From positions 124,001 to 188,000 of the forward strand of contig MSJI02000111.1 in assembly GCA_001931905.2 (NCBI GenBank): 64,000 nt of DNA, in the 5' to 3' direction. A program made the translations under genes and the position numbers. Positions within the stretch are counted from its first letter, which is position 1. The number at the start of each line of letters is the position of its first letter. Positions 652-63,819 of the stretch are shown in pieces. The notes beneath the pieces were generated by a model that ran no database searches, was not told the DNA's origin, and saw only the letters and a list, made by a program, of their open reading frames with translations. Origin of the DNA: Cladosporium sp. IMV 00045 (Eukaryota; Ascomycota; Dothideomycetes; Cladosporiales; Cladosporiaceae).

Positions 652-1922
652 GTTGAGTGGTTGGGTTGCGGAAAATAACAGATGTTCAAGATATGCTAAA
701 AGATGTTTGCAAGGATGAATCTCGACGCTGGTACATACCAATTATATATACCCTCAGGCCCACCCGGAACTGCCATGGAGGCCCAACAGAGGGTGATGCA
801 TGTCTTGTCTACGCGACAACGCCGCAGAGCATGGTTTCTCAGCTTCAGGGCGCTACACTGTCGGACCTCAATGCAAAAGCAGGGAGGCGGGTCGGCGCAA
901 CTGCTGAATCAATTCAGGTCGATGTTGGCAGCAGAGATGAAGGTATATAGGAAGATGCCCGGGCCTAGTTGAGTGCATGCTATGAAACAGCGTGCGGCTG
1001 AAGGATGCTGTATGTTGGCTTGGCCAAACGCTATGTAAATAAGCGATTTTGCATCCTGTATTATCAGTGGTAGTAGCAGACTAGTGACCATGGCCAGCAA
1101 TTATCGTTGTTGCGGCCTAGCAGCCGCGGGTAAATCCTTGTTGCTCTCCCATGGGCTTGGTTCGCCCCAGACCTTGGGATGCTGGCCGGGATGGCTGAAA
1201 ATATGGTAACTGACTTGATCCAGCAAGCCAGATTAACAAGGCAAGAACATCACGCATCTCGTGGCAGGGCTCTCGTAGCGTTAGATCGCGTATGCATCAG
1301 CGGAGTGTAGCGAGTCTCTGCCGTCCTTTACCAATCTCGATTATTCTGGGCAAAATCATGCCCTGCTCTGCAAGACTACGCGCCGTGAGGTGTGCTGGTC
1401 AAGGTCAAAGCACGAAGTAGGCAGATCATCATAGTCGATCGTGGGGGTGTGTTGTAGCGAAGAGAAGGGAAATGAAGTGTTGTTGTCGGAAAGCATCCCC
1501 GATGCAAGTGTGTGGCACAGAAGCCTCGGCGTTTCAAAATCCTCGGATGCATCGAAGCGCTCTCACGTGGCGTTCACGTGGCCATTCTCCACACGCGGCT
1601 CAATCAAGACACTGTGGTCTTGAACTGCTGGCCATGGTTCCGTGTCAAGGATGGATTGGCGTGTGCCGTATAGCCGGACCGCAAGATCGGGCGACTAACC
1701 CGATGTTCACTACAAACAGCAGACTCTCGACACGGGCGACCAAGAGCATGGACACACTCATGCTCGCAGAGGAAGTTGCCTGCACCATGATAACAGGCTT
1801 ACCCAGATGCTGACAAGACATGCAGCTATCGCGGCTGAGTTGCATGGGCTTCGCCACCACTGTCATCATGCTCGATCACTGCTTTTCCCTCTCCAGTGTC
1901 AGAGTACTCAACAGCCTTGATT
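652..1922. other. Intergenic stretch containing the left edge of copy A
   Basis: No convincing gene. Small open frames here are not preserved in the copy-B counterpart (36,912-38,185). Similarity to copy B begins near 809 and is patchy until about 1,480, then strong up to the next gene. Confidence 0.6.
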
Positions 1923-3644
1923 ATGTTCAAACAAGCGATGTTAGGTCTGTTAGCCCGAAACCCTCATAACGTATCTGCCTTGCCTTCTAGAGATTGTTTC
2001 AACATGGCGACGCCAACAACCACACCGGCAGATCGGCCGAATCTGTCGACAGGGCCAATATCCGGTTCTGCGTCAGGTTCAACTTCCACTTCTGAGACCA
2101 ACCCCGTCTCAAGTGTCACCGCGACGAGCCCAACACCTGCACATCCGACGTCTACTCCCACGGCTTCGGTGGAATCATCTCCGCCGTCAACACCAACAGC
2201 ACAGACTGTTCAGCCACCCATGTCAACAAACCCCGCGCATCCAGTCCAACCTTCCAAAATATGGAAGTGGCGTGGTATTTTCAACACTTCCGTCGCGACT
2301 TGGATTGGACTCGCCATCGCCTTAGCTGCGTTCGTCGGGTTCCTATATTTCGAGCTGGCCTCAAAGGATCCTGAGCCTCTAGACGTTTGGAAAGCAAGGA
2401 ATGCCTTTCACCAGACTTGCATAATGGAGTTCACATCCGGGTCTGAGCGGAGATCGCCTGCATGTAGCGATGAGCTCTCAAACTTCGCGCAGCCACCGCC
2501 CATTTCTAAACGACAAACGACAATTGCAATTGAAGAGAATCCTTCTCAGTGGACAGCCTTCTACGGGTTTCGAACATTTTTCTATCTAGTCTCGGCATGG
2601 GGCCTTACGAAATTGAACAGCGTCTACATCCTTTCGCGACGTATGGAAGCGCCCAATTTTGCTCTAGGTCTTACTCGATGCGTGTGTGCCACCGTTTCTG
2701 TAGTGGTTACGGCCTTCTCCGCAGATTTCAGCAAAGGCAGTCCTATGGTAACACTCAAAAGCGTGGACGAAGTTCAAATACTTACCGAGGGACTATTTTT
2801 CAATCCCAAAAGTCTCATGGGCCTTGCGAAATTTGGTAGGCCTGGCGGAGGAGCAGCCTTTGGACTATTGATAATGTTCTTTGGCTGTGGAGTCTTCAGG
2901 GTATACGACATGTTGTCAAGAGATCAAGATTATTATCGAACGCCGGCAGTGCCGTCTCGGAGCCACAGAGCGCTGATAAGTCGCGACACGTACAACATCT
3001 GTCTCTTACCGCTTGCAATTGTCCCCATCTGCTGTGTTCCGACATGGCTATCAATCTCAGCGTTGTGTTGTACTTTTGCAACATACGAGACGTTGATTCT
3101 GGTCGGACGACGTGTAGGCATTCGACCTACCACCCCAATCTTGTGGATGGTGTTTCAAACCATGCTCTCATCTTACATGGCGTTCTTTCTCACCTGGACA
3201 CCGCTTATTCTGGATTTGCTGACGAGGCTCCTAATCAGCTCTGTTCAGAATGAGAATACGCAAAGAATGAGGACTCTCACTTTCAAAACTGCCATAACGT
3301 TACTCTCTTTGCCAGCAGCTGGCACCGCGCTGAACATATCTCGCCAAAACATTCGGGGATTTGCACTGATAGGGACCTTTGCTGCGTACGTCCAACTTTG
3401 CCTCAAATCAAGCATTCACTTCACTAAACAATACAGTTATATGGTTATCATCTACGCATTTGATCATGCGCATTCTGTATGGCTCGATTCTTATGTCAGA
3501 TGCTGCGCTATGCCCTTCGAAGCAGCACCTGATGAGCTTAACCACGGCGTACACGAGGGTGGCGAGATCCCATCATGGCTCTTAGAAGCAGTGTTCGCCA
3601 AGTGCTTGAGGAGCGAAAGATCGTTCAGCTACCAGTCACTCTAA
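1923..3644 (+). CDS. Multi-pass membrane protein of unknown function
   Basis: The frame encodes a Ser/Thr/Pro-rich N-terminal stretch of about 100 residues, a first hydrophobic helix (TWIGLAIALAAFVGFLYFEL), a Cys-containing loop and several further hydrophobic segments, with a short polar tail. I use the ATG at 1923 because it is shared with the copy-B gene (38,186); the frame continues upstream in both but without a shared Met. A 51-nt intron at 3,386-3,436 is likely: it has a GT donor, a CACTAAA branch-like site and an AG acceptor, and its copy-B equivalent has a better CACTAAC. It is a multiple of three, so either form is open (573 aa unspliced, 556 spliced). I do not recognise the family. 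Confidence 0.75.
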   Translation: MFKQAMLGLLARNPHNVSALPSRDCFNMATPTTTPADRPNLSTGPISGSASGSTSTSETNPVSSVTATSPTPAHPTSTPTASVESSPPSTPTAQTVQPPMSTNPAHPVQPSKIWKWRGIFNTSVATWIGLAIALAAFVGFLYFELASKDPEPLDVWKARNAFHQTCIMEFTSGSERRSPACSDELSNFAQPPPISKRQTTIAIEENPSQWTAFYGFRTFFYLVSAWGLTKLNSVYILSRRMEAPNFALGLTRCVCATVSVVVTAFSADFSKGSPMVTLKSVDEVQILTEGLFFNPKSLMGLAKFGRPGGGAAFGLLIMFFGCGVFRVYDMLSRDQDYYRTPAVPSRSHRALISRDTYNICLLPLAIVPICCVPTWLSISALCCTFATYETLILVGRRVGIRPTTPILWMVFQTMLSSYMAFFLTWTPLILDLLTRLLISSVQNENTQRMRTLTFKTAITLLSLPAAGTALNISRQNIRGFALIGTFAAYVQLCLKSSIHFTKQYSYMVIIYAFDHAHSVWLDSYVRCCAMPFEAAPDELNHGVHEGGEIPSWLLEAVFAKCLRSERSFSYQSL

Positions 3645-18928: not shown

Positions 18929-20371
18929 ATGATGCCATCCACAGCTTTATACGACTACAGCTGCGGACTTGATTCCTACAGTCCGCCACAGGAAATGGAT
19001 CACCCAAAGAAAGGAGCTCTGGAGGACCCCGAGCGTCCGACCATGCCCGACGACAACGGCCTTACTCAGCAAATCACTCTCGAAGAGGGTGAACAGAGAT
19101 TTCACAAGCTAGGCTGGAAGGGCCTTACGATTTGCCTCATAGTGGAAGCCATTGCCTTGGGCTCTCTAAGCCTTCCCTCTGCATTCGCGGATCTCGGTAT
19201 GGTGCTCGGAATCCTCATCACGATCGGCTTTGGCATACTTGCGATGTACACCAGCTACCTCATTGGACAAGTGAAGCTCAGGTACCCTCACGTATCGGAC
19301 TATGCAGATGCTGTTGGTTTGATCTGGGGCCGCTTTGGATATTGCCTCGCCAGTGCGATGTTTGTCGGGCTCTTGATACTAGTGGTCGCGTCACATGTAT
19401 TGACGGGCACTATTGCATTCATTGCCATTGTCGACCGACCAGACATATGTGCTCTGGTATGGGGTGCAATCTCAGCTGTTTTGCTATTCCTCCTCGCCCT
19501 CCCTCCTACCTTTTCGGACTTCGCAATACTGGGATACATCGACTTCTTATCTATTATTTTAGCTATTGGGATTACTATCATAGCTACTGGAGTCGATGGT
19601 GTTAACGCCGAGGGTGGACTTGGGGTCGTAGGCTGGCGGTTCTGGCCTGCGAGGAATCTAACTTTCAGCTCAGCATTCTTGTCCATCACGAATATACTTT
19701 TCGCGTACTCTTTCGCTCTGGTCCAATTCAGCTTTATGGATGAGATGCATACTCCCTCGGACTACATCAAGTCCACCTACGCAATTGGTACAATCGAAAT
19801 CTTCATTTATACTCTGACGGGAGCGCTCATTTATGCGTTCGTTGGAGACGAGGTTGGGAGTCCCGCGCTGCTCTCGGCAGATAAGCTGATTGCACGAATA
19901 GCGTTTGGTGTTGCTCTACCAGTAATATACATCTCTGGATCGATCAACTCCACCGTATTAGCAAAATACATCATCAGAAGAGCGTTTCCATATTCGAACA
20001 TTCGCTTTGTCAACGACGTACGGGGCTGGATCGTGTGGGTTTTTATCATCGCAATCGCCACTATCACGGCTTGGATTATTGCTGAGGCAATCCCTTTCTT
20101 CAGCGCTCTCCTAGGAGCCATCTCGAGCCTGTTCATTAGCGGCTTCACTGTGTACTTTCCGGCAATCTTCTGGTTCACGATCCTTAAGAAAGGTAAATGG
20201 AACGCGAACTGGGCCAATCTTGCTCTTTCCTTGCTGAATGCTGGAATAATTGTGGTGGGCATGATAGTGCTCGTATGCGGTACTTATGCTAGTGTGCAAA
20301 GCATCGTTGATTCCTTCAGCGACGGCTCAGTCGGTACAGCATTTGCCTGCGCTTCCAGTCAGTACCTGTAG
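18929..20371 (+). CDS. Amino-acid permease (Aa_trans / AAAP family)
   Basis: An intronless 480-aa frame. A polar N-terminal tail of about 70 residues is followed by WKGLTICLIVEAIALGSLSLPSAFADLG, the first helix signature of the AAAP family (fungal neutral amino-acid permeases such as Neurospora mtr are members). About eleven hydrophobic helices follow. It should be a proton-coupled amino-acid importer in the plasma membrane or vacuole; the substrate cannot be read from sequence. It lies downstream of the Zn2Cys6 regulator on the same strand. The copy-B counterpart is a pseudogene. Confidence 0.9.
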   Translation: MMPSTALYDYSCGLDSYSPPQEMDHPKKGALEDPERPTMPDDNGLTQQITLEEGEQRFHKLGWKGLTICLIVEAIALGSLSLPSAFADLGMVLGILITIGFGILAMYTSYLIGQVKLRYPHVSDYADAVGLIWGRFGYCLASAMFVGLLILVVASHVLTGTIAFIAIVDRPDICALVWGAISAVLLFLLALPPTFSDFAILGYIDFLSIILAIGITIIATGVDGVNAEGGLGVVGWRFWPARNLTFSSAFLSITNILFAYSFALVQFSFMDEMHTPSDYIKSTYAIGTIEIFIYTLTGALIYAFVGDEVGSPALLSADKLIARIAFGVALPVIYISGSINSTVLAKYIIRRAFPYSNIRFVNDVRGWIVWVFIIAIATITAWIIAEAIPFFSALLGAISSLFISGFTVYFPAIFWFTILKKGKWNANWANLALSLLNAGIIVVGMIVLVCGTYASVQSIVDSFSDGSVGTAFACASSQYL

Positions 20372-21137: not shown

Positions 21138-22019
21138 CTAAAGTGTCTGGCCCAGTTCCAGTAGAACGCCTTCCTCAGGGTGGAAGAGGCGTACTTCCTT
21201 CATGAAGCCATCCTCCTTAAAAGTAACGTCTCGGCTTTGTGCAAAGAAACTATCCTCTGATCCGTCGACAACATCTTCTAACTTGAATTCCCCCAAGTCC
21301 AAAACCTCGTCCTCGCTTTCGGAATCATCGAGGTCATACGATGCACCGCTCTGATGGCTCTTGGAAGCTAAGTGACCATTCTTATAGGTCAACAATCTCA
21401 CTTTCAGCCCGAAAATGAAGTCCAATTTCCCCGAAGACAGTCTTTCTCCGACTTGGAAAGACGTGTGAGCTTCAGAACCAAGTTCTCCGAGAGCAGGGCC
21501 ACGCATTTTCAACTCTGCATTGGATGATCGCTCTTGATCGCTCTCGATGATCCTGATCGCGCCATAGGCCTTCTTCAAGCCAGTGACAAGGAAGACTTTA
21601 GACCTCGGTCTTGGTGCTGTGAAGGCATTTCGCACTCCAGTATCCTGCAAGATCTTCTCGAGGTACGTTTCGTCCGGGAAAAATTCTTCCGTTGCCAATT
21701 TGTCTGCTCTGTAAGATATGCTGTAATTCTGCTTGATCCCTCCCTTGAGATTGGCCTCGAGACCTAGCAGTTGCAGGAAGTTGGCGAAGATCCCTGCACT
21801 AAGAGTCTTCTGGGTGTTGCTTGTCCAGGACCAGTCGGATTCATCAGGTCGTTCTCGTGTGAGTGAATTCGAAATCGATGCAGGCTTTTCGTTGTTGAGC
21901 CGATCTTGTGGTTCCCAGGGAGACAGGATGACGTGGCCGAGCGATACTACAGAAACTCCGAGCAGATCACGCGTGCCCACCGTAAACCACACAGGCTTGG
22001 GTAAGGGTGGTGCAGACAT
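21138..22019 (-). CDS. Gasdermin-like pore-forming protein (HET-Q1/RCD-1 type), candidate
   Basis: A single 293-aa frame without signal peptide. Recognition rests on overall layout: a short N-terminus with FTVGTRDLLG, a central SKVFLVTGLKKAYGA block resembling the conserved strand of gasdermin N-domains, alternating amphipathic strands, then an acidic linker (DLDDSESEDE, about 222-231) and a short C-terminal tail. Fungal gasdermins of the HET-Q1 type are about this size and are activated when a protease removes a short C-terminal piece, after which the N-part permeabilises membranes and kills the cell. The gene directly upstream on the same strand is a subtilisin-like protease, the known partner arrangement. 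The family call is from memory and context, not a search. ATG at 22,019; no in-frame ATG lies just upstream. Confidence 0.7.
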   Translation of the reverse strand: MSAPPLPKPVWFTVGTRDLLGVSVVSLGHVILSPWEPQDRLNNEKPASISNSLTRERPDESDWSWTSNTQKTLSAGIFANFLQLLGLEANLKGGIKQNYSISYRADKLATEEFFPDETYLEKILQDTGVRNAFTAPRPRSKVFLVTGLKKAYGAIRIIESDQERSSNAELKMRGPALGELGSEAHTSFQVGERLSSGKLDFIFGLKVRLLTYKNGHLASKSHQSGASYDLDDSESEDEVLDLGEFKLEDVVDGSEDSFFAQSRDVTFKEDGFMKEVRLFHPEEGVLLELGQTL

Positions 22020-22696
22020 CTTGACTGGATATGAAGAATGATTCTCGCGTGTGTATGTTACGAAATACGATCTGGGCAAGAGCGCAATCGAGCTTTTTAG
22101 ATATTTCTATATAGCATGGGTACTTCTCAAATATGTGGCTTACCTTTAGTTTAGTAAGCACATCGCATAGAGGGGTAAAGTGCTCTCACGAGAAGCTCTT
22201 CCAATGGCGTATTGCAACCCGCGACGCCAACCTAGTTCTCATCGGTACTGTACCTAGATCAGCAAAGGATGAGGGCTATGGGTGCAATTTACATAATTAT
22301 CGGCTACCAGTATTCTACAGATCCGGGCTAGGATTGTGCATTCACCCAAACACTTGCATTCAGATAGTATAGTCGCCGAAATCGCGACGACTTGGGTCTC
22401 AAAACATGTGGTGAGTCTCGTGAATGATTACAGAGCTTAGCAAGCATTCCCGCGAAGGTACGCAAGAACTCTTGTTTCATGACAACGTAAAGGGAAAAGA
22501 GATGTTGGATGCATTCAATTAGTTACAATGCCTTAGGTCCCACATTTGCGTCAGTGCCTACTCAATCAAAAGCGACAGAAAGATTAATCCATTCAACAGC
22601 AATCCTTCATGCGACAGTTTTGTTTTTGTGATCTATCATAGATTGAGCCAGAGAAGAACCGGGGAGCTCGTGACCCACTCAGCACTGGAACAAACA
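22020..22696. other. Spacer between the protease gene and the gasdermin-like gene
   Basis: It must hold the promoter of the gasdermin-like gene and the 3' end of the protease gene. Conserved with copy B and free of larger indels. No other gene recognised. Confidence 0.5.
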
Positions 22697-24949
22697 TCAA
22701 AGTGGCCCCTTGATCTTGATAAACCTCTCTCTCAATGCGAAGATCACTTGGTCCAGCGCGTGACCGCGGTGAGAACGTTGTCCATCATTGACATACTCTG
22801 TAGGTTCGCTATGGCCCAACAGTTGCCACGGCTTCACGTAAGAGTACCCGTGCAGTTCGCGGTTCTTGCACATGCTCTTGAAGATGAGAGTCATGCCGGC
22901 AAAAGTCTTGATTTGTCCCTCGAGCTCCTTGATCTTCGGCTCTGAGCTCACTTGCTGTCGGACAAGGTCCAAGACCAAAGCTGCTATTCCAGCTGCGATG
23001 GGCGTAGCATAGGAAGCTCCCTTCGCTCTGCCAAAGCCTTGAACGGGCTGCAATCGTTTGTCTAGGATTGCAACATCTTCACCGGGAAGCATCAGGCTGA
23101 CCTCGCCCGAGGCAGCGGGCGTGAAAGGAGACGGTTTTCCTAGATGGTCGCACGAGTGCACGCGGAATATCCCTGGGTGATTTGCCGGAAAGGCGCCCCC
23201 AAGGGGACCATTCTCACCATCGTTGGATACTGCGGCAAACATGAGAATCTTGTCTCGAGCAAGATTGAGCTGACGAGATACTTGTTCTTGCACAAGTTCC
23301 CAACCAAATGACATACTCACAATATCCACTTCTTCACTGATTGCCCAGGCGAGCGCAGCAGCAACGGCTTGTGGCTGAATTCTGTCCCTCCCTCTCTTCC
23401 GCACGTTCGCAATGAAGAGTTTTGCTTGAGGGGCTGTTTGTAGCACGAGCGATGCGCATCGTGATCCATGCAGGTCTTTACCCGTTTCTTGCCAATCCTC
23501 GTTACCTGCGAAGTCCTTGTATTGTAAGACGTTGTCCTTCAGATAGTCGCCCCAGCCGCCAAAGTCTGTTCCATTACGACCACCTTGGTTTTTCATACGA
23601 TCGTGATCAATTCCGGAGTCAATAATGGCAACACGGACGCGTTTCCGCTGCCATTTGTTGCCGTATGGAGTCAGCTGGGGGTAGAGCATCTCATGAGTAT
23701 GCTCTTGCAGCTTGGAAAACCAAACGTCTCTTTTGTCTATTGTGCCATATGCTTCAGCCTCGCTTTCAGTGTCTTGTGAATAGGCAAGGGCGACATCCTC
23801 AGGCAAGCCCTGAATCGAATGTTTGAGTGGGCTTGGCCGCGTAACACGATCAATATGTCGTCTGGAGACCTCGAGGCCTCCTGATCCGGTTCTCTCCAAA
23901 CTCGAAAGTGAGCCAGTAGAGCGACGGATTCCTGTGGTCCGACGCAGTGAGTGTTGTTCTTTCCGTTTATGGCGTTTTGTAGGACGTACATCCGTCTCGC
24001 TGAGGGCATCGGATTTTCGTTTACGTTGAACCATCGAGACTTTACGTGGAGGGTCCATGGATGCAAGGCCTTGGTCGCCAGTTTGTTTCAAAATTGTCTC
24101 GACCTCAGAGTCTCTCCAAGTCGAGTGAGTATTTACGCTCTGGGCAAAGGAATCCATGCTAGGGCTTTGTCTACCACCATTCGCAATTCGAATGGCATCG
24201 GTGCAATTCCTGATGTATTTGTCCACATTTCGAATGTTGTCCTGTATCGAGTATATCGTTGCATTGTCGAGCTCAGAATTGTCTTGAAGATGCTGTCGAA
24301 GTATCTGTTTCAGTCCCAGGAACCCTCGTTTTGAGCTTTCATGGCGTCCGAGAGAATATAGCGCCGCCGAAAGGCCGTGCCTCACTGCGATAGTCCATTG
24401 CAAGTCTGCATTCACCGAGATTGGAGTGTCTTCAAGTAGACCGTTGTAGATGCGTTCTGCTTCCAGAAACATCTCAAGTTCTTGATAGATTTTAGCCAGA
24501 TGCAGTCGTGTATCTTGCAACATCTCGGCTCCACATTCGTCTTCTCCCAGCTTCATGTTTCGGACATGTAGCTGCTCAGCTTTGAGGAGTCTTGCCCTTC
24601 GAGCTTCTTTTGTTTCAAATGTGGGACTTATGGCTCCAAGATTTCTCGCAAGATTGTACCGTATGCGAGGGACGCTTTTCCGAGTTTGGCCAGAGTCACT
24701 TCTGTCCAGAAGCTCTAATGTCTCTTCGTTCCTGGATGCTGCACCGGAGAATTCGCCGAGCCGATGTTCACATTCACCGATGAACTCGCGGAGCTCGTAT
24801 GTCCATTTTGTCTTCATCTCTTTCTCTTCGACGAAGGTCAGTGCTTCCAGATAGAGTGACTTTGCCTCATCGTATCTCTCGGCCTCGAAGTCCTTTTTGC
24901 CTCGAGAGAGTAGGTCGAAGACTTTTGCCTTATCTTCAGCAGTTGCCAT
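22697..24949 (-). CDS. TPR-containing subtilisin-like serine protease (S8), HET-Q2-like partner
   Basis: An intronless 750-aa frame from the ATG at 24,949. Residues 1-240 contain TPR-like helix pairs (for example around 17-45, 150-172 and 190-220). Residues 255-405 are a basic, Ser-rich, probably disordered linker. Residues 435-670 are a subtilisin domain with VAIIDSG (Asp 444), DLHGSRCA (His 494), VSNDGENG (oxyanion Asn 576) and GASYATPIAAG (nucleophile Ser 646). All catalytic residues are present. There is no signal peptide, so the enzyme is intracellular. In fungi, S8 proteases of this kind sit beside gasdermin genes and activate them by cleavage; TPRs would sense or recruit a trigger. The linker is the fastest-diverging part between the two copies. 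Confidence 0.85.
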   Translation of the reverse strand: MATAEDKAKVFDLLSRGKKDFEAERYDEAKSLYLEALTFVEEKEMKTKWTYELREFIGECEHRLGEFSGAASRNEETLELLDRSDSGQTRKSVPRIRYNLARNLGAISPTFETKEARRARLLKAEQLHVRNMKLGEDECGAEMLQDTRLHLAKIYQELEMFLEAERIYNGLLEDTPISVNADLQWTIAVRHGLSAALYSLGRHESSKRGFLGLKQILRQHLQDNSELDNATIYSIQDNIRNVDKYIRNCTDAIRIANGGRQSPSMDSFAQSVNTHSTWRDSEVETILKQTGDQGLASMDPPRKVSMVQRKRKSDALSETDVRPTKRHKRKEQHSLRRTTGIRRSTGSLSSLERTGSGGLEVSRRHIDRVTRPSPLKHSIQGLPEDVALAYSQDTESEAEAYGTIDKRDVWFSKLQEHTHEMLYPQLTPYGNKWQRKRVRVAIIDSGIDHDRMKNQGGRNGTDFGGWGDYLKDNVLQYKDFAGNEDWQETGKDLHGSRCASLVLQTAPQAKLFIANVRKRGRDRIQPQAVAAALAWAISEEVDIVSMSFGWELVQEQVSRQLNLARDKILMFAAVSNDGENGPLGGAFPANHPGIFRVHSCDHLGKPSPFTPAASGEVSLMLPGEDVAILDKRLQPVQGFGRAKGASYATPIAAGIAALVLDLVRQQVSSEPKIKELEGQIKTFAGMTLIFKSMCKNRELHGYSYVKPWQLLGHSEPTEYVNDGQRSHRGHALDQVIFALRERFIKIKGPL

Positions 24950-25457: not shown

Positions 25458-26231
25458 ATGGCACCAGTATCTGGACATTGCACTCAAATCAAGAGAGACA
25501 CGAGCAGCTCTTCGCTCGCCTCACAACAACACCGATGGATAATAGTGGGAGTTGTATTGGGCCTTCTGGTCTTTGGTCTCCTGTTATGCTGCTGCTGCGC
25601 CAGAGGAACTTATCGTCGAACATACAGAGAAACAGATTCGCCGGAACGTCCCTTCTCGAATCCGGAACGATTTACTTCTATTCCAACCCAAAGACCTTCT
25701 TCCATAGTGTCATTGACCAAACCAAGGAAGGCAAAGAAGCGTCGGCCTAGTGTCATACCTGAAGAGAGAAGTCACCCTACGGCCCCGCATGCCAGGACTG
25801 AGCGTGTAGCGCATGAGCCTCAGGATGATGGGCTCCCCAATGACCCGCCGTTTGCTGGTTGGTCTGAGGAGGCCATTAAACGCGCAGAGGTCCCCCAGCA
25901 GATGCAACAACAATACATGGAACCCGTCGCAGCTCGTTTAACGTCATTAAGGCCCCAACGAGCATCGATCCACCATTCAGAATCGAGGATTCACAGGCCC
26001 GCGCGTCGACCGCGTAGACCAAGGAACTCCCTTAGACCAGAAAACATTACAGACCGTGGCATTCCCAACCTGGCTTCACCGCCTCCACCTCTCGTGAGGC
26101 GAGAGGAGATCACATTGGAAGGTTCTTTCAGGGGAGTTTTCGAGCACCCAAGTGGAGCAAGAATGGAGGGTCTGTTTGACGGGACCTTTCGCGGGATGTT
26201 TGACGAGGACAATCCGCCTAGGCCGCTGTAG
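25458..26231 (+). CDS. Single-pass membrane protein with Arg/Pro-rich cytoplasmic tail
   Basis: The frame encodes a Ser-rich lead (TSSSSLASQQHR), one strong transmembrane helix (WIIVGVVLGLLVFGLLL) followed by CCCCARG, a likely palmitoylated juxtamembrane Cys cluster, then a long basic tail. The C-terminus has EGSFRGVFEHPSG and EGLFDGTFRGMF, repeats with a weak MORN-like look. 257 aa from the ATG at 25,458, but that ATG is ATC in copy B, so the true start may lie in an upstream exon that I cannot define. This is a common architecture for fungal mid-size membrane proteins of unknown function. Confidence 0.65.
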   Translation: MAPVSGHCTQIKRDTSSSSLASQQHRWIIVGVVLGLLVFGLLLCCCCARGTYRRTYRETDSPERPFSNPERFTSIPTQRPSSIVSLTKPRKAKKRRPSVIPEERSHPTAPHARTERVAHEPQDDGLPNDPPFAGWSEEAIKRAEVPQQMQQQYMEPVAARLTSLRPQRASIHHSESRIHRPARRPRRPRNSLRPENITDRGIPNLASPPPPLVRREEITLEGSFRGVFEHPSGARMEGLFDGTFRGMFDEDNPPRPL

Positions 26232-26537: not shown

Positions 26538-27735
26538 TTAGATCTTGCCGAAACCAGCGTTCTTGGTGACGCTAGCAACAACACCCGAAGCTTGAGCAGC
26601 AGAAGCGATGTTCTTGCCCTTGTAGTTCGACAAGAAGCTAGTAGAGCCCATGCTGTTGAAAGCGCCGGAGCTGCCGAAAGCGTTAAGCTGGCAAGTGTGG
26701 CCGAGGGTAGAGGAGCAGGCCGCGTTGGCAGAAGTGCTCGGGGCGGTGAAGATTTGACCGCCGGTGGTCTGGGTGTCGATAGGGTTGTCGACGTTCTGGA
26801 AAGCGTTGCCTTCGGCGACGATGGAGGCGCCGGTGCCGACCTCGAAGGCGTGGCCCTCGACCGCGTACCAGTAGTTGTTGACGGCGTGGAGGAGGGTGTT
26901 GCCGCCGACCTTGGGGGCGCGGCCGCTGACGTGGTGGACGTAGTTGCCCTTAAAAGTGACCATGTCGTTAGAGCCGGTGAAGTAGAGAGCCCAGTAGTGG
27001 TGGTTGTTGCAGGTGGCGGACCAGCTACTGCTGCCGTCGATCTCGGAGTTGGAGATGGTCACGCGGTTGCTGGCCCCATTGCCGAGAACGATGTGCTGGC
27101 GTCCGATCAGGGAGGTCTGATATCTTTTTAGCAGAGTAGTAGAGATGAGTGGGATGCTATGATCTTACCTTGACGTGATCAATCCAAACCATGTCAGCAC
27201 CGTCGAGGGTGATAGCGTCGCCACCCCAAACGTACTGAGGGTTCAGGTTGGTAATGTGAATGTTCTGGAAGATGATGTTGTTCGCTCCAGAGGTGATACG
27301 GAGACCCTTGCCCTTAATGACACCCTTGCTGCCCTCGCCAATGAGAGTCTTCTTCGACTTAACGATGATGGGGTTGAGACCAGCTTTGTCGTATTTCACG
27401 CTAACGCTAGGAGCACTCGACTGGTAGTTCTTGCACCAGTTGTCCTTGTTGATCGCCGTTTGGCAACCGGATCCAGTTCCCCAGGGAGCGCAACCAGTCT
27501 CAGAAGCGGTTCCCTCGGTGCCAGTGAAGTCGAAAGTCTTTTGCAGGACGATGACACGAGCGGAAGAGTCGCCGAGGTAAGAGACCAGCTCGTCGTTGGT
27601 TTTGGGATAGACTGGAGAAGCAGAACCACCACCAGTAACGCCTTTGGCGAAGCCTTCAGCAGCACCAGAGACACCAATGGCCGCTACGTTCGAAGCAAAG
27701 GCGGCAAGCGCCGTGGTGAAAAGGGAGAACTTCAT
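26538..27735 (-). CDS. Secreted pectin lyase (polysaccharide lyase family 1)
   Basis: Two exons joined across a 52-nt intron (27,117-27,168) give 381 aa. [19 protein letters not shown] is a signal peptide. The parallel beta-helix family is recognised by [64 protein letters not shown] and [17 protein letters not shown], typical of fungal pectin lyases, which cleave methylated pectin by beta-elimination outside the cell. It suits a plant-associated lifestyle. Copy B differs by five residues only. Confidence 0.92.
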
Positions 27736-28154: not shown

Positions 28155-28174
28155 NNNNNNNNNNNNNNNNNNNN
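28155..28174. other. Run of 20 Ns (assembly gap)
   Basis: Twenty N bases mark a scaffold join or unresolved sequence. The real length may differ. It lies only about 240 bp past the last visible copy-A position, so it matters for how the duplication is judged. Confidence 1.
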
Positions 28175-55047: not shown

Positions 55048-56494
55048 ATGATGCCATCCTCAGCTTTATACGACTACAGCTGCGGACCCGACTCCTACAG
55101 TCCACCACAGGAAATGGATCACCCAAAGAAAGAAGCTCTGGAGGACCCCAAGCGGCCAACCATGCTCGACGACAACGGCCTTACTCAGCAAATCACTCTC
55201 GAAGAGGGTGAACAGAGATTTCACAAGCTAGGCTGGAAGGGCCTTACGATATGCCTCATAGTGGAAGCCATTGCCCTAGGCTCTCTAAGCCTTCCTTCTG
55301 CATTCGCGGATCTCGGTATGGTGCTCGGAATCCTCATCACGATCGGCTTTGGCATACTTGCGATGTACACCAGCTACCTCATTGGACAAGTGAAGCTCAG
55401 GCACCCTCACGTATCGGACTATGCGGATGCTGTTAGCTTGATTGGGGTCGCTTTGGATATTGCCTCGCAAGTGCGATGTTTGTCGGGCTCTTGATACTAG
55501 TGGTTGCGTCACATGTATTGACGGGCACTATTGCATTCATTGCCATTGTCGACCAGCCAGACATATGTGCTCTCGTATGGGGTGGAATCTCAGCAGTGTT
55601 GCTATTCCTCCTCGCTCTCCCTCCTACGTTTTCGGAATTCACAATACTGGGATACATCGACTTCTTATCTATCATCTTAGCTATCGGGATTACTATCATA
55701 GCTACTGGAGTTGATGGTGTCAACGCTCAGGGTGGACTTGGGGCCATAGGATGGCGTCTATGGCCTGCGAGGAATCTAACTTTCAGCTCGGCATTCTTGT
55801 CTGTTACGAATATACTTTTCGCGTACTCTTTCGCTCTGGTCCAATTCAGCTTTATGGATGAGATGTATACTCCCTCAGACTACATCAAATCCACCTACGC
55901 AATTGGTATAATCGAAATCTTCATCTACACTCTAACGGGAGCGCTCATTTAACTTATGCGTTCGTTGGAGACGAGGTTGGGAGTCCCGCGCTGCTCTCAG
56001 CAGATAAGCTGATTGCACGCATAGCGTTTGGTGTTGCTCTACCAGTAATATATATCTCGGGGTCGATCAACTCCACGGTATTGGGAAGATACATCATCAG
56101 AAGAGCGTTTCCACATTCGAACATTCGTCTTGTTAACGACGTACGGGGCTGGATCGTGTGGATTTCCATCATCGCAATCGCCACTATCACGGCTTGGGTC
56201 ATTGCTGAGGCAATTCCTTTCTTTAGCGCTCTTCTAGGAGCCATCTCGAGCTTGTTCATTAGCGGCTTTACCGTGTACTTTCCGGCGATCTTCTGGTTCA
56301 CGATTCTTAAGAAAGGGGAATGGAACGCAAACTGGTCCAATCTTGCTCTCTCCTTGCTGAATGCTGGAATAATCGTCGTGGGCATAATAGTGCTCGTGTG
56401 CGGTACTTATGCCAGTGTGCAAAGCATCGTTGATTCCTTCAGCCACGGTTCAGTCGGTACAGCATTTGCCTGCGCTTCCAGTCAGTACCTGTAG
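55048..56494 (+). pseudogene. Copy-B amino-acid permease, inactivated
   Basis: Same start and C-terminus as 18,929-20,371 but broken twice. Near 55,443 one base is missing (copy A gatctgggg, copy B gattgggg), shifting the frame after residue 131. At 55,950-55,956 five extra bases create TAACTTA and an immediate in-frame TAA. The three open segments otherwise remain highly similar to copy A, so inactivation is recent. No splicing arrangement I can see bypasses both. Confidence 0.88.
55950..55956. mobile_element. TA-ACT-TA candidate excision footprint in the permease pseudogene
   Basis: Copy A has a single TA at 19,832-19,833 in an identical context (gctcattTAtgcgttcg). The insertion supplies the premature stop. 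Confidence 0.6.
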
Positions 56495-57254: not shown

Positions 57255-58141
57255 CTAAAGCGTCTGGCCTAGTTCCCGTAGAACGCCTTCCTCAGGGTGG
57301 AAGAGGCGTACTTCCTTCATGGAGCCATCCTCCTCAAAAGTAACGTCTCGGCTTTGTGCAAAGAAATTATTCTCTGATGCGTCGACAACATCTTCTAACT
57401 TGAAGTCCCTCAAACTCAAAACCTCGTCCTCGCTTTCGGAATCATCGAGGTCAAACGATGCACCACTCTGATGGCTCTTGGAAGTTAATTGACCATTCTT
57501 ATAGGTCAACAATCTCACTTTCAGCCCGAAAATGAAGTCCAATTTCCCCAAAGACAGTCTTTCTCCGACTTGGAAAGATGTGTGAGCTTCAGATCCAAAT
57601 TCTCCGAGAGCAGAGCCACGCATTTTCATCTCTGCATTGGATGATCGCTCTTGATCGCTCTCGATGGTCCTGATCGCGCCATAGGCCTTCTTCAAACCAG
57701 TGACAAGGAAGACTTTAGACCTCGGTCTTGGTGCTGTGAAGGCATCTCGCACTCCAGTATCCTGCAAGATCTTCTCGAGGTACGTCTCGTCCGGGAAAAA
57801 CTCTTCCGTTGCCAGTTTGTCTGCTCTGTAAGATATGCTGTAACTTAATTCTGCTCGATCCCTCCCTTGAGATTGGCTTCGAGACCTAGCAGTTGCAGGA
57901 AGTTGGCGAAGATCCCTGCACTAAGAGTCTTCTGGGTGTTGCTTGTCCAGGACCAGTCGAATTCATCAGGTCATTCTCGTGTGAGTGAATCCGAAATCGA
58001 TGCAGGCTTTTCGTTATTGAGCCAATCTTGAGGTTCCCAGGGAGACAGGATAACGTGGCTGAGCGATACTGCAGAGACTCCAAGCAGATCACGCGTGCCC
58101 ACCGTAAACCACACAGGCTTGCGTAAGGGTGGTGCAGACAT
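57255..58141 (-). pseudogene. Copy-B gasdermin-like gene, inactivated
   Basis: Aligns end to end with 21,138-22,019 (887 versus 882 nt). Two breaks are visible. Codon 57 is TGA where copy A has CGA (57,971-57,973). A 5-bp insertion at 57,843-57,847 adds an immediate TAA and shifts the frame. The remaining sequence, including the acidic linker and C-terminal tail, is still close to copy A, so the loss is recent. Either change alone would remove the central pore-forming region. Confidence 0.85.
57841..57847. mobile_element. TA-ACT-TA candidate excision footprint in the gasdermin-like pseudogene
   Basis: Copy A has a single TA at 21,724-21,725 (ctgTAattctg). Same inserted bases as in the permease pseudogene 1.9 kb away. 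Confidence 0.6.
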
Positions 58142-58818
58142 CTTGACTGGATATGAAGAATGATTCTCGCATGTGTATGTTACGAACTACGACCTGGACA
58201 AGGGCGCAATCGAGATTTACAGGTATTTCTATATAGCATCGGTACCTCTCAAATATGTGGCTTACCTTTAGTTTAGTAAGCACATCGCATAGAGGGGTAC
58301 AATGCTCTCATGAGAAGCTCTTCCAATGGCGTGTTGCAACCCGCGACGCCAACCTAGTTCACATCGGTACTGTACCTAGATGAGCAAAAGATGAGGGCTA
58401 CGGGTGCAATTTACGTAATCATCGGCAACCAGTATTCTACAGATACGGGCTAGAATTGTGCATTCATCCGAACAATTGCATTCAGATAGTATGGTCGCCG
58501 AAATCGCGAAGACTTGGGTCTCAAAACATGTGGTGAGTCTCGTGAATGATTACAGACCTTAGCAAACTTTCCCGCGAAGGTACGCAAGAACTCTCGTTTT
58601 GTGACAACGTAAAGGGAAAAGAGATGTTGGATGCATTCAACTAGTTACAATGCCTTATGCCCCACATTTGCGTCAGTGCTTACTCGATCAAAAGCGACAG
58701 AAAGATGAATCCATTCAACAGTAATCCTTCATGCGACAAATCTGTTTTTATGATCTATTATATATTGAGACAGAGAAGAACCGGGGAGCTCGTGACCCAC
58801 TCGGCACTGAAACAAATA
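58142..58818. other. Copy-B spacer between protease and gasdermin-like genes
   Basis: Counterpart of 22,020-22,696 with only scattered substitutions. No gene. Confidence 0.5.
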
Positions 58819-61062
58819 TCAAAGTGGCCCCTTGATCTTGTTAAATCTCTCTCCCAATGCGAAGATCACTTGGTCAAGCGCGTGACCGCGATGAGATCGT
58901 TGACCATCATTGACATACTCTGTAGGTTCGCTATGGCCCAAAAGTTGCCACGGCTTCACGTAAGAGTACCCGTGCAGTTCGCGGTTCTTGCACATGCTCT
59001 TGAAGATGAGAGTCATGCCGGCAAAAGTCTTAATTTGTCCCTCGAGCTCCTTGATCTTCGGCTCTGAGCTCACTTGCTGTCGGACAAGGTCCAAGACCAA
59101 AGCTGCTATTCCAGCTGCGATGGGCGTAGCATAGGAAGCTCCCTTCGCTCTGTGAAAGCCTTTAACAGGCTGCAATCGTTTATTTAGGATTGCGACATCT
59201 TCGCCGGGAAGCATCAGGCTGATCTCGCCAGAGGCAGCGGGCGTGAAAGGAGACGGTCTTCCTAGATGGTCGCACGAGTGCACGCGGAATATCCCCTGGT
59301 GATTTGCCGGAAAGGCACCCCCAAGGGGACCATTCTCACCATCGTTGGATACTGCGGCGAACATGAGAATCTTGTCTCGAGCAAGATTGAGCTGAAGAGA
59401 CACTTGTTCTTGCACGAATTCCCAACCGAATGACATACTCACAATGTCCACTTCTTCACTGATCGCCCAGTTGAGCGCAGCAGCAACGGCTTGTGGTTGA
59501 ATTCTGTCCCTCCCTCTCTTCCGCACGTTCGCAATGAATAGTTTTGCTTGAGGGGCTGTTTGTAGCACGAGCGATGCGCATCGTGATCCATGCAGGTCTT
59601 TACCCGTTTCTTGCCAATCCTCGTTACCTGCGAAGTCCTTGTATTGTAAGACGTTGTCCTTCAAATAATCGGCCCAGCTGCCGAAGTCTGTTCCCTCTTG
59701 GCTCTTCATTCGATCGTAATCGATTCCGGAGTCAAGAATCGCAACACGCACGCGTTTTCGCTGCGATATGTTGCCGTATGGAATCAGTTGCGGGTATAGC
59801 ATCTCGTGAGTGTACTCCTGCAGCTTGGAAAACCAAATGTCTCTTCGGTCTACTGTGCCAAATGTTTTGGCCTCGCTTTCAGTATCATGCGAATTCGCAT
59901 AGCCGATACCCTCGCGTAAGTCTTTCATCGAATGTCTAAGTGGCCTTGGCCGCGCGACATTACCAATCTGTGGTCTGAAAACATCAAGGTCTTCTGACCG
60001 GTATCTGTCCAACTTTGGAAGAGAGCCAGTGGAGCGACGCATTCCCTTACTCCGGTTCAATAAGTGTTGTCCTTTCCATTTGTGACGTTTTGGCGGGCGT
60101 ACATCCGCTTCGCTGAGGGTATCTGATTTTCGTTTACGTTCGTCCTCTGAGTGTTTATGCAGAGGATCCACGGATGTCCGATCGTGTCGTCTGTCTTGGT
60201 CCAAAGATGTCTCGATTCCCGAAAACCTCACAAGCGAGCCAACATGTGAATACTGTTCGAGGGTATCCGTGTTGTGCCTTTCTCTTGCAGTGCTCGCAAT
60301 TTTCATAGCATCAATGCAATTCCTGATGTACTTGTTCACGTTCCGGATATTGTCTTGCAACGATCGCGCAGTCGTCTCATCCAGCTCAGCATCGTTCTGG
60401 AGACACTGTCGAAGTACCTCTTTGAGTTTCAAGAAGCTTCGTTTCGAGCCTTCATGTCTTCCGAGAGAATAGAGCGCCGCTGAATGGCCGTGTCTCACTG
60501 CGATAGTCCATTGCAAGTCTGCATTCACCGAGGTTGACATGTCGTCAAGCAGACCGTTGTAGATGCGTTCTGCTTCCAGAAACATCTCAAGTTCTTGATA
60601 GATTTTAGCCAGATGCAGTCGTGTATTTTGCAACATCTCGGCTCCACATTCGTCTTCTCCCAGCTTCATGTTTCGGACGTGTAGCTGCTCAGCTTTGAGG
60701 AGTCTTGCCCTTCGAGCATCTTTTGTCTCAAGTGTAGGACTCATGGCTTCAAGGTTTCTCGCAAGATTGTAGCGTATACGAGGGATGCTTTTCCGAGCTC
60801 GGCCAGAGACATTTCTGTCCAGAAGCTCTAATGTCTCTTCGTTCCTGGATGCTGCACCGGAGAACTCACCGAGCCGATGTTCACATTCACCGATAAATTC
60901 GCGAAGCTCGTATGTCCATTTTCTCTTCATTTCCTTCTCTTCGACGAAGGTCAGTGCTTCCAGATAGATTGATTTTGCCTCATCGTATCTCTCGGCCTCG
61001 AAGTCCTTCTTGCCTCGAGAAAGTATATCGAAGACTTTTGCTTTATCTTCAGCAGTTGCCAT
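58819..61062 (-). CDS. Copy-B TPR/subtilisin-like S8 protease
   Basis: 747 aa, intact, with DSG, HGSRCA, SNDGENG and GASYATPIAAG all conserved. TPR and catalytic regions are nearly the same as copy A, but residues about 255-400 are heavily substituted and differ by small in-frame indels; here they include many changes to charged residues. The enzyme is kept although its adjacent gasdermin-like gene is dead, so it either acts on the copy-A gasdermin-like protein or has another substrate. Confidence 0.85.
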   Translation of the reverse strand: MATAEDKAKVFDILSRGKKDFEAERYDEAKSIYLEALTFVEEKEMKRKWTYELREFIGECEHRLGEFSGAASRNEETLELLDRNVSGRARKSIPRIRYNLARNLEAMSPTLETKDARRARLLKAEQLHVRNMKLGEDECGAEMLQNTRLHLAKIYQELEMFLEAERIYNGLLDDMSTSVNADLQWTIAVRHGHSAALYSLGRHEGSKRSFLKLKEVLRQCLQNDAELDETTARSLQDNIRNVNKYIRNCIDAMKIASTARERHNTDTLEQYSHVGSLVRFSGIETSLDQDRRHDRTSVDPLHKHSEDERKRKSDTLSEADVRPPKRHKWKGQHLLNRSKGMRRSTGSLPKLDRYRSEDLDVFRPQIGNVARPRPLRHSMKDLREGIGYANSHDTESEAKTFGTVDRRDIWFSKLQEYTHEMLYPQLIPYGNISQRKRVRVAILDSGIDYDRMKSQEGTDFGSWADYLKDNVLQYKDFAGNEDWQETGKDLHGSRCASLVLQTAPQAKLFIANVRKRGRDRIQPQAVAAALNWAISEEVDIVSMSFGWEFVQEQVSLQLNLARDKILMFAAVSNDGENGPLGGAFPANHQGIFRVHSCDHLGRPSPFTPAASGEISLMLPGEDVAILNKRLQPVKGFHRAKGASYATPIAAGIAALVLDLVRQQVSSEPKIKELEGQIKTFAGMTLIFKSMCKNRELHGYSYVKPWQLLGHSEPTEYVNDGQRSHRGHALDQVIFALGERFNKIKGPL

Positions 61063-62621: not shown

Positions 62622-63819
62622 TTAGATCTTACCGAAACCAGCGTTCTTGGTAACGCTAGCGACAACACCGGAAGCAGGAGCAGCAGAAGCGATGTTCTTG
62701 CCCTTGTAGTTCGACAAGAAGCTAGTAGATCCCATGCTGTTGAAAGCGCCAGAGCTGCCGAAGGCGTTAAGCTGGCAAGTGTGGCCGAGGGTGGACGAGC
62801 AGGCCGCGTTGGCAGAAGTGCTCGGGGCGGTGAAGATTTGACCGCCGCTGGTCTGGGTGTCGATAGGGGCGTCGACGTTCTGGAAAGCGTTGCCTTCGGC
62901 GACGATGGAGGCGCCGGTGCCGACTTCGAAGGCGTGGCCCTTAACCGCATACCAGTAGTTGTTGACGGCGTGGAGGAGGGTGTTGCCGCCGACCTTAGGG
63001 GCGCGGCCGCTGACGTGGTGGACGTAGTTGCCCTTGAACGTGACCATGTCGTTGGAGCCGGTGAAGTAGAGAGCCCAGTAGTGGTGGTTGTTGCAGGTGG
63101 CGGACCAGCTGCTGCTGCCGTCGATCTCGGAGTTGGAGATGGTCACGCGGTTGCTGGCCCCATTGCCGAGAACGATGTGCTGGCGTCCGATCAGGGAGGT
63201 CTGATATCTTGTTAGCAGAGTTGAAGAGATGAGTGGGATGCTATGATCATACCTTAACGTGATCAATCCAAACCATGTCAGCACCGTCGAGGGTGATAGC
63301 GTCACCACCCCAGACGTACTGAGGGTTCAGGTTGGTGATGTGGATGTTCTGGAAGATGATGTTGTTCGCGCCAGAGGTAATACGGAGACCCTTGCCCTTG
63401 ATGACACCCTTGCTGCCTTCGCCGATGAGAGTCTTCTTCGACTTGACGATGATAGGATTGAGACCAGCCTTGTCGTATTTCACGCTAACGCTGGGAGCGC
63501 TCGACTGGTAGTTCTTGCACCAGTTGTCCTTGTTGATCGCCGTTTGGCATCCGGATCCAGTTCCCCAGGGAGCGCAACCAGTCTCATAAGCGGTTCCCTC
63601 GGTGCCAGTGAAGTCGAAAGTCTTCTGCAGGACGATGACACGAGCGGAAGAGTCGCCGAGGTAAGAGACCAGCTCGTCGTTGGTCTTGGGATAGACTGGG
63701 GAAGCAGAACCACCACCAGTAACACCTTTGGCGAAACCTTCAGCAGCACCAGAGACACCAATGGCCGCTACGTTCGAAGCAAAGGCGGCAAGCGCCGTGG
63801 TGAAAAGGGAGAACTTCAT
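62622..63819 (-). CDS. Copy-B secreted pectin lyase (PL1)
   Basis: Two exons joined across a 52-nt intron (63,201-63,252), 381 aa. It differs from copy A at five positions (Ser/Tyr in exon 1; Glu/Lys, Asn/Ala, Thr/Ser and Gln/Pro in exon 2). Signal peptide and beta-helix signatures are unchanged. Two active, nearly identical genes would raise enzyme dosage. Confidence 0.92.

Follow-up and report, generated by a model that had tools for sequence, protein, structure and literature searches.

Gasdermins are a protein family whose members kill cells by perforating the membrane. In fungi, about 80% of gasdermin genes are clustered with protease genes and about 60% with genes for S8 proteases, and the commonest architectures in these clusters include TPR, ANK or WD40 repeats (PMC12881547, PMC10989679, PMC10197012). 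An example is the HET-Q1/HET-Q2 pair of Podospora anserina, in which the gasdermin HET-Q1 is reported to lose 40 residues after F238 (PMC10989679) and the partner HET-Q2 is an S8 protease. Here, we describe a gasdermin-like gene and a neighboring protease gene in a 64,000-nucleotide stretch of the genome of Cladosporium sp. IMV 00045, hereafter the window, which corresponds to positions 124001-188000 of contig MSJI02000111.1 (C110 in our numbering). The two genes very probably constitute a cell-death cassette, consisting of a fungal gasdermin and a HET-Q2-like protease, for which a mechanism can be predicted. Fungal gasdermin–protease pairs have been described before, and finding the two genes together is no novelty in itself. 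The locus contributes a clear cassette of a gasdermin and a TPR-S8 protease, from a genome in which all seven gasdermin-like loci found have an S8 neighbor. It also offers two natural versions, one with an intact and one with a broken gasdermin frame, as a usable test case for what the TPR–linker region senses; the stimuli of protease sensors are regarded as a major open question (PMC12881547).

The window cassette resembles HET-Q1/HET-Q2 in combining a gasdermin of similar length (293 residues here, 278 in HET-Q1) with an S8 protease, but the protease is longer (750 versus 388 residues) and carries N-terminal TPRs. In addition, het-Q1 and het-Q2 are different genes that occupy one locus in different strains, whereas both genes stand together here. 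From the HET-Q2-like (Q2-L) proteases near fungal gasdermins, the protease of the window cassette is set apart by no defining difference. RCD-1 of Neurospora crassa is not controlled by cleavage and, at 257 and 244 residues, is shorter than the 293-residue protein (PMC12881547); it presumably lacks a tail of the kind found here. In bacterial defense systems, a gasdermin gene is likewise clustered with a protease gene, but the window cassette is eukaryotic and far diverged in sequence.

The gasdermin-like protein

An earlier sequence-only reading had placed a 293-residue gasdermin-like frame directly downstream of a TPR–linker–S8 protease on the same strand, and both the coordinates and the strand are confirmed. 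An open reading frame check locates the gasdermin-like frame at 21141-22019 of the minus strand with its stop codon at 21138-21140, and the protease frame at 22700-24949 of the same strand with its stop codon at 22697-22699; the two genes are 677 bp apart. Profile searches match the 293-residue protein to HET-Q1, RCD-1, and bacterial gasdermins, including the HET-Q1 pore 9uv9 (1.5e-8), and the PADLOC model bGSDM matches it at 1.5e-4. A profile built from eight sequences returned gasdermins exclusively, and one built from five returned only gasdermins below E 0.2; the broken second copy of the gene was excluded from every profile. The reversed-sequence decoy search was empty, the decoy holding three reversed sequences against five and eight forward ones and thus being unmatched in depth. 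By computed homology to the N-domain of RCD-1 and HET-Q1, the protein is a predicted member of the gasdermin family.

The predicted structural model contains a pore-type N-domain at about residues 8-212, the final strand of which lies at 199-212. Gasdermins occupy the top 12 Foldseek rows and the top 9 VIA-align rows for this model, RCD-1 being the best match, and as modeled the N-domain has the gasdermin fold. Residues 216-226 are uncertain, with a model confidence (pLDDT) below 50, and are followed at about 241-281 by strands and helices of fair confidence. The isoelectric point (pI) is 9.07 for residues 1-217 and 4.06 for residues 218-293, where 21 acidic residues stand against 6 basic ones. 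A basic N-terminal part followed by an acidic tail at about 218-293 is the arrangement one would expect if a short C-terminal tail inhibited the gasdermin. Profile search and fold comparison both favor the gasdermin assignment first proposed for this frame. Of the outcomes named in advance as refuting it, neither an unlike fold nor a significant hit in some other family emerged with the five- and eight-sequence profiles, although a profile of 37 sequences gave spurious rows, discussed below.

The protease and its pairing with gasdermins across the genome

The protease consists of a TPR region (about residues 1-250), a variable linker (about 251-425), an S8 match (436-666), and a C-terminal extension. 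Pfam assigns Peptidase_S8 (4.8e-20) and TPR_12 (4.5e-8, in two stretches), and a nucleotide-binding domain is absent from its matches at E ≤ 1. PADLOC subtilase also matches (1.4e-8), and the closest PDB relative is an intracellular serine protease (7.9e-14). The complete set of catalytic residues noted in the earlier reading is borne out by an alignment of 16 sequences that includes both window proteases: D444, N576, and S646 do not vary in it, and H494 hardly does. Among 16 database relatives, four combine TPR with S8, seven combine DUF7580 with S8, and five have S8 only, the search having scored only the 8000 candidates with the most words in common. By eye, no signal peptide is evident at the start of the gasdermin or the protease. 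The protease shares three features with HET-Q2-like proteins: complete S8 catalytic residues, a gasdermin gene within 10 kb, and a fused repeat region, the last being frequent among them though not universal.

The whole genome assembly, 49.9 Mb in 954 contigs, was searched for gasdermin-like and S8 matches. Four gasdermin queries were used at thresholds of E ≤ 10, 0.1, 0.1, and 0.1. The window protein, P0014, and the C814 paralogue found the same seven loci, two on C110 and one each on contigs C936, C386, C814, C407, and C34; the fourth query, P0032, recovered six of these and missed the broken copy B on C110. No query gave a further gasdermin-like locus anywhere in the genome. An S8 match lies beside all seven, with 0.2 to 3.6 kb between the matches. 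For S8, 19 rows of matches were obtained and combined manually into 16 places, and these counts are lower bounds; nine of the 16 places are without a nearby gasdermin-like match. The probability that a randomly chosen site has an S8 place within 5.5 kb is about 0.0035. If homeologous copies are counted as one, there are four locus types, and the probability that four random sites would all lie so close is about 1.6e-10. The pairing of gasdermins with S8 proteases exceeds chance.

Two types of partner occur at these loci. TPR-S8 proteases are encoded by both C110 copies and at C936, where the frame is open over 901 residues; its C386 counterpart (L018 2055-4812) falls into two overlapping frames, a split that is a frame break or an assembly error. 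The second type is DUF7580 (PF24476, scanned in L019 and L021), assigned by Pfam at C814 and C34, with S8 in the following frames on the same strand; the scan covered these two loci, and C407 is near identical to C814. This type of partner is head to head with the gasdermin gene in L019 and L020 and tail to tail in L021. We infer that the DUF7580 and S8 frames form one spliced gene, and single proteins that combine both domains occur in the database. The gasdermin loci also pair across separate contigs, C936 with C386 and C814 with C407; a partner for C34 was not found. The coordinates of the cassette and related features of the window are given in Table 1.

Table 1. Features of the cassette region, in window coordinates
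Feature	Position	Strand	Product	Evidence or remark
Gasdermin-like gene	21138..22019	-	293 aa	single open frame; profile matches, predicted fold, charge
TPR-linker-S8 protease, HET-Q2-like	22697..24949	-	750 aa	Pfam, alignment, PDB relatives, copy comparison
Candidate third member, frame with a single hydrophobic stretch	25458..26231	+	257 aa	position only; divergent from protease
20-N run	28155..28174			at the exact boundary of the two 36-kb block copies
Gasdermin-like gene, second copy, broken frame	57255..58144	-		premature stop codon and 5-base length difference
TPR-S8 protease, second copy	58819..61062	-	747 aa	open; four catalytic residues kept

Predicted mechanism and alternative explanations

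Built on the computed gasdermin family and fold, the S8 and TPR domains with their catalytic residues, and the genome-wide pairing, the best reading is the one already published for such clusters: the repeat-bearing protease would serve as sensor and the gasdermin as executioner, with tail cleavage as the switch. The proposal of a sensor plus executioner pair, raised when the locus was first read, fits the reviews of such clusters. The acidic C-terminal tail would keep the gasdermin inactive. The protease is probably cytosolic, and its N-terminal TPRs, perhaps together with the variable linker, may act as sensor or regulator. Upon a trigger, the S8 domain would cut the gasdermin between the pore domain and the tail, where the model is poorly ordered, at a predicted place around residues 213-243, and the released N-domains would then build membrane pores and cause cell death.

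Several observations weigh against this proposal. A single-sequence phmmer search of the 293-residue protein against the PDB returned no gasdermin, Pfam gives it no family at E ≤ 1, NCBIfam gives it no name, and the C34 paralogue is without a PADLOC match. Among the 12 rows that the 37-sequence profile gave at E ≤ 1, five belong to unrelated repeat proteins, one a WD-40 repeat protein and four named WRAP-T, and in none of these five did any stretch pass; they were treated as noise, and the family case rests on the five- and eight-sequence profiles. The Foldseek TM-scores against the RCD-1 pore are just 0.45 and 0.54, with a root-mean-square deviation of 6.4, and our confidence is slightly lowered because these scores are modest. 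The tail, at about 70-76 residues, is longer than the 40 residues lost by HET-Q1, and the 293-residue sequence does not reveal where a cut would fall. Finally, the ratio of nonsynonymous to synonymous substitution rates (dN/dS) between the two gasdermin copies is 0.78 over 169 codons, the sole comparison being with the broken copy.

The cassette lies in a block of about 36 kb that is present twice on C110, as block A (115955-152154) and block B (152175-188237), head to tail and abutting at 20 N. BLAST pieces of A and B are 86-97% identical, the 15-kb piece bearing the cassette being 91.5% identical. The 20-N junction is probably an assembler's end-to-end join of two homeologous contigs. A true tandem duplication was judged less likely because the other gasdermin loci pair across separate contigs. 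Between the protease copies, dN/dS is 0.20 in the S8 part, 0.25 in the TPR part, and 0.51 in the linker. Within the protease gene, the two copies fall to 64-85% identity in 300-bp windows over a patch with sharp edges at 23641-24541. Since silent sites also differ, the patch is more than relaxed constraint.

These copies raise the question of a het-like allorecognition locus, in which A and B would be alternative haplotypes in a hybrid. This is compatible with the cleavage-activated cassette, and we consider it rather unlikely. Copy B has an open protease frame yet a broken gasdermin, and het-Q1/het-Q2 is given as an example of emergence by pseudogenization (PMC10197012). Fourfold-site divergence is raised in protease codons 201-450, where 27 of 68 sites differ versus 22 of 218 elsewhere (p 1.4e-7), a stretch picked after the patch was seen. 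Moreover, the linker of the database protein P0034 is of the copy-B version, with 152 of 175 residues identical to copy B versus 95 of 175 to copy A. On the other side, low identity is not confined to the patch: the 36-kb alignment comprises 121 windows of 300 bp, 8 of which fall below the lowest window of the patch, and the open frame at 1839-3641 also has windows of low identity. The amino-acid transporter of copy B is split too, and B as a whole may therefore be affected by decay or assembly error. The comparison covers two copies from one genome. An extended version, which we consider unlikely, sees a het-Q-like system emerging in the window. Two diverged haplotypes of the cassette would now share a hybrid nucleus, one having lost its gasdermin while retaining an active-looking protease with a different sensor–linker version; the gasdermin loss would account for the viability of the hybrid, and the linker patch would be the recognition determinant.

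Activation in the manner of RCD-1, through pairing with a variant gasdermin and without cleavage, would leave the protease to act on another substrate. RCD-1 is the top fold match of the model and is controlled by two coexisting variants instead of cleavage (PMC12881547). However, the pore domain here is followed by about 70 residues of acidic character, all seven gasdermin-like loci found have an S8 neighbor, and cleavage appears to regulate most fungal gasdermins (PMC12881547), which makes this mode of activation distinctly improbable. That the 293-residue protein is another pore-former of the wider MACPF/CDC fold group, or has no relation to gasdermins and resembles them only through a profile artefact, is highly improbable: complement, perforin, and cytolysin chains do appear further down the fold lists and the 37-sequence profile did return spurious rows, but gasdermins come first in both fold lists, the smaller profiles gave gasdermins within the limits stated above, and the decoy was empty.

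A possible third gene and other genes of the window

Beyond the protease, and divergent from it, lies a frame that by eye is possibly a single-pass membrane protein, and the TPR-S8 loci on C936 and C386 likewise have, divergent from the protease, a frame with a single hydrophobic stretch. The window frame matches the C936/C386-type frame in pairwise BLASTP with E 8e-5, across the hydrophobic part; in whole-genome searches at E ≤ 1, neither type recovers the other. Full-length matches of each are confined to its own locus pair, with weak partial matches elsewhere (best 3.7e-4), and dN/dS between copies of the two types is 0.62 and 0.43. The divergent membrane-protein frame is only a possible candidate for cassette membership, and the two types are at most putative homologues. 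In the extended het-Q-like reading, such a third member may tether the TPRs or signal to them.

The amino-acid transporter mentioned above (Pfam Aa_trans) lies at 18929-20371 in copy A, and its copy-B counterpart at 55048-56494 is split over three open frames. A 601-residue open frame at 1839-3641 has, over part of its length, four A/B windows of 65.7-71.7% identity. A flanking gene at 27160-27735 and 63250-63819, pectate lyase-like by eye, encodes nearly the same protein in both copies, with a dN/dS of 0.013 over 190 codons, unlike the cassette.
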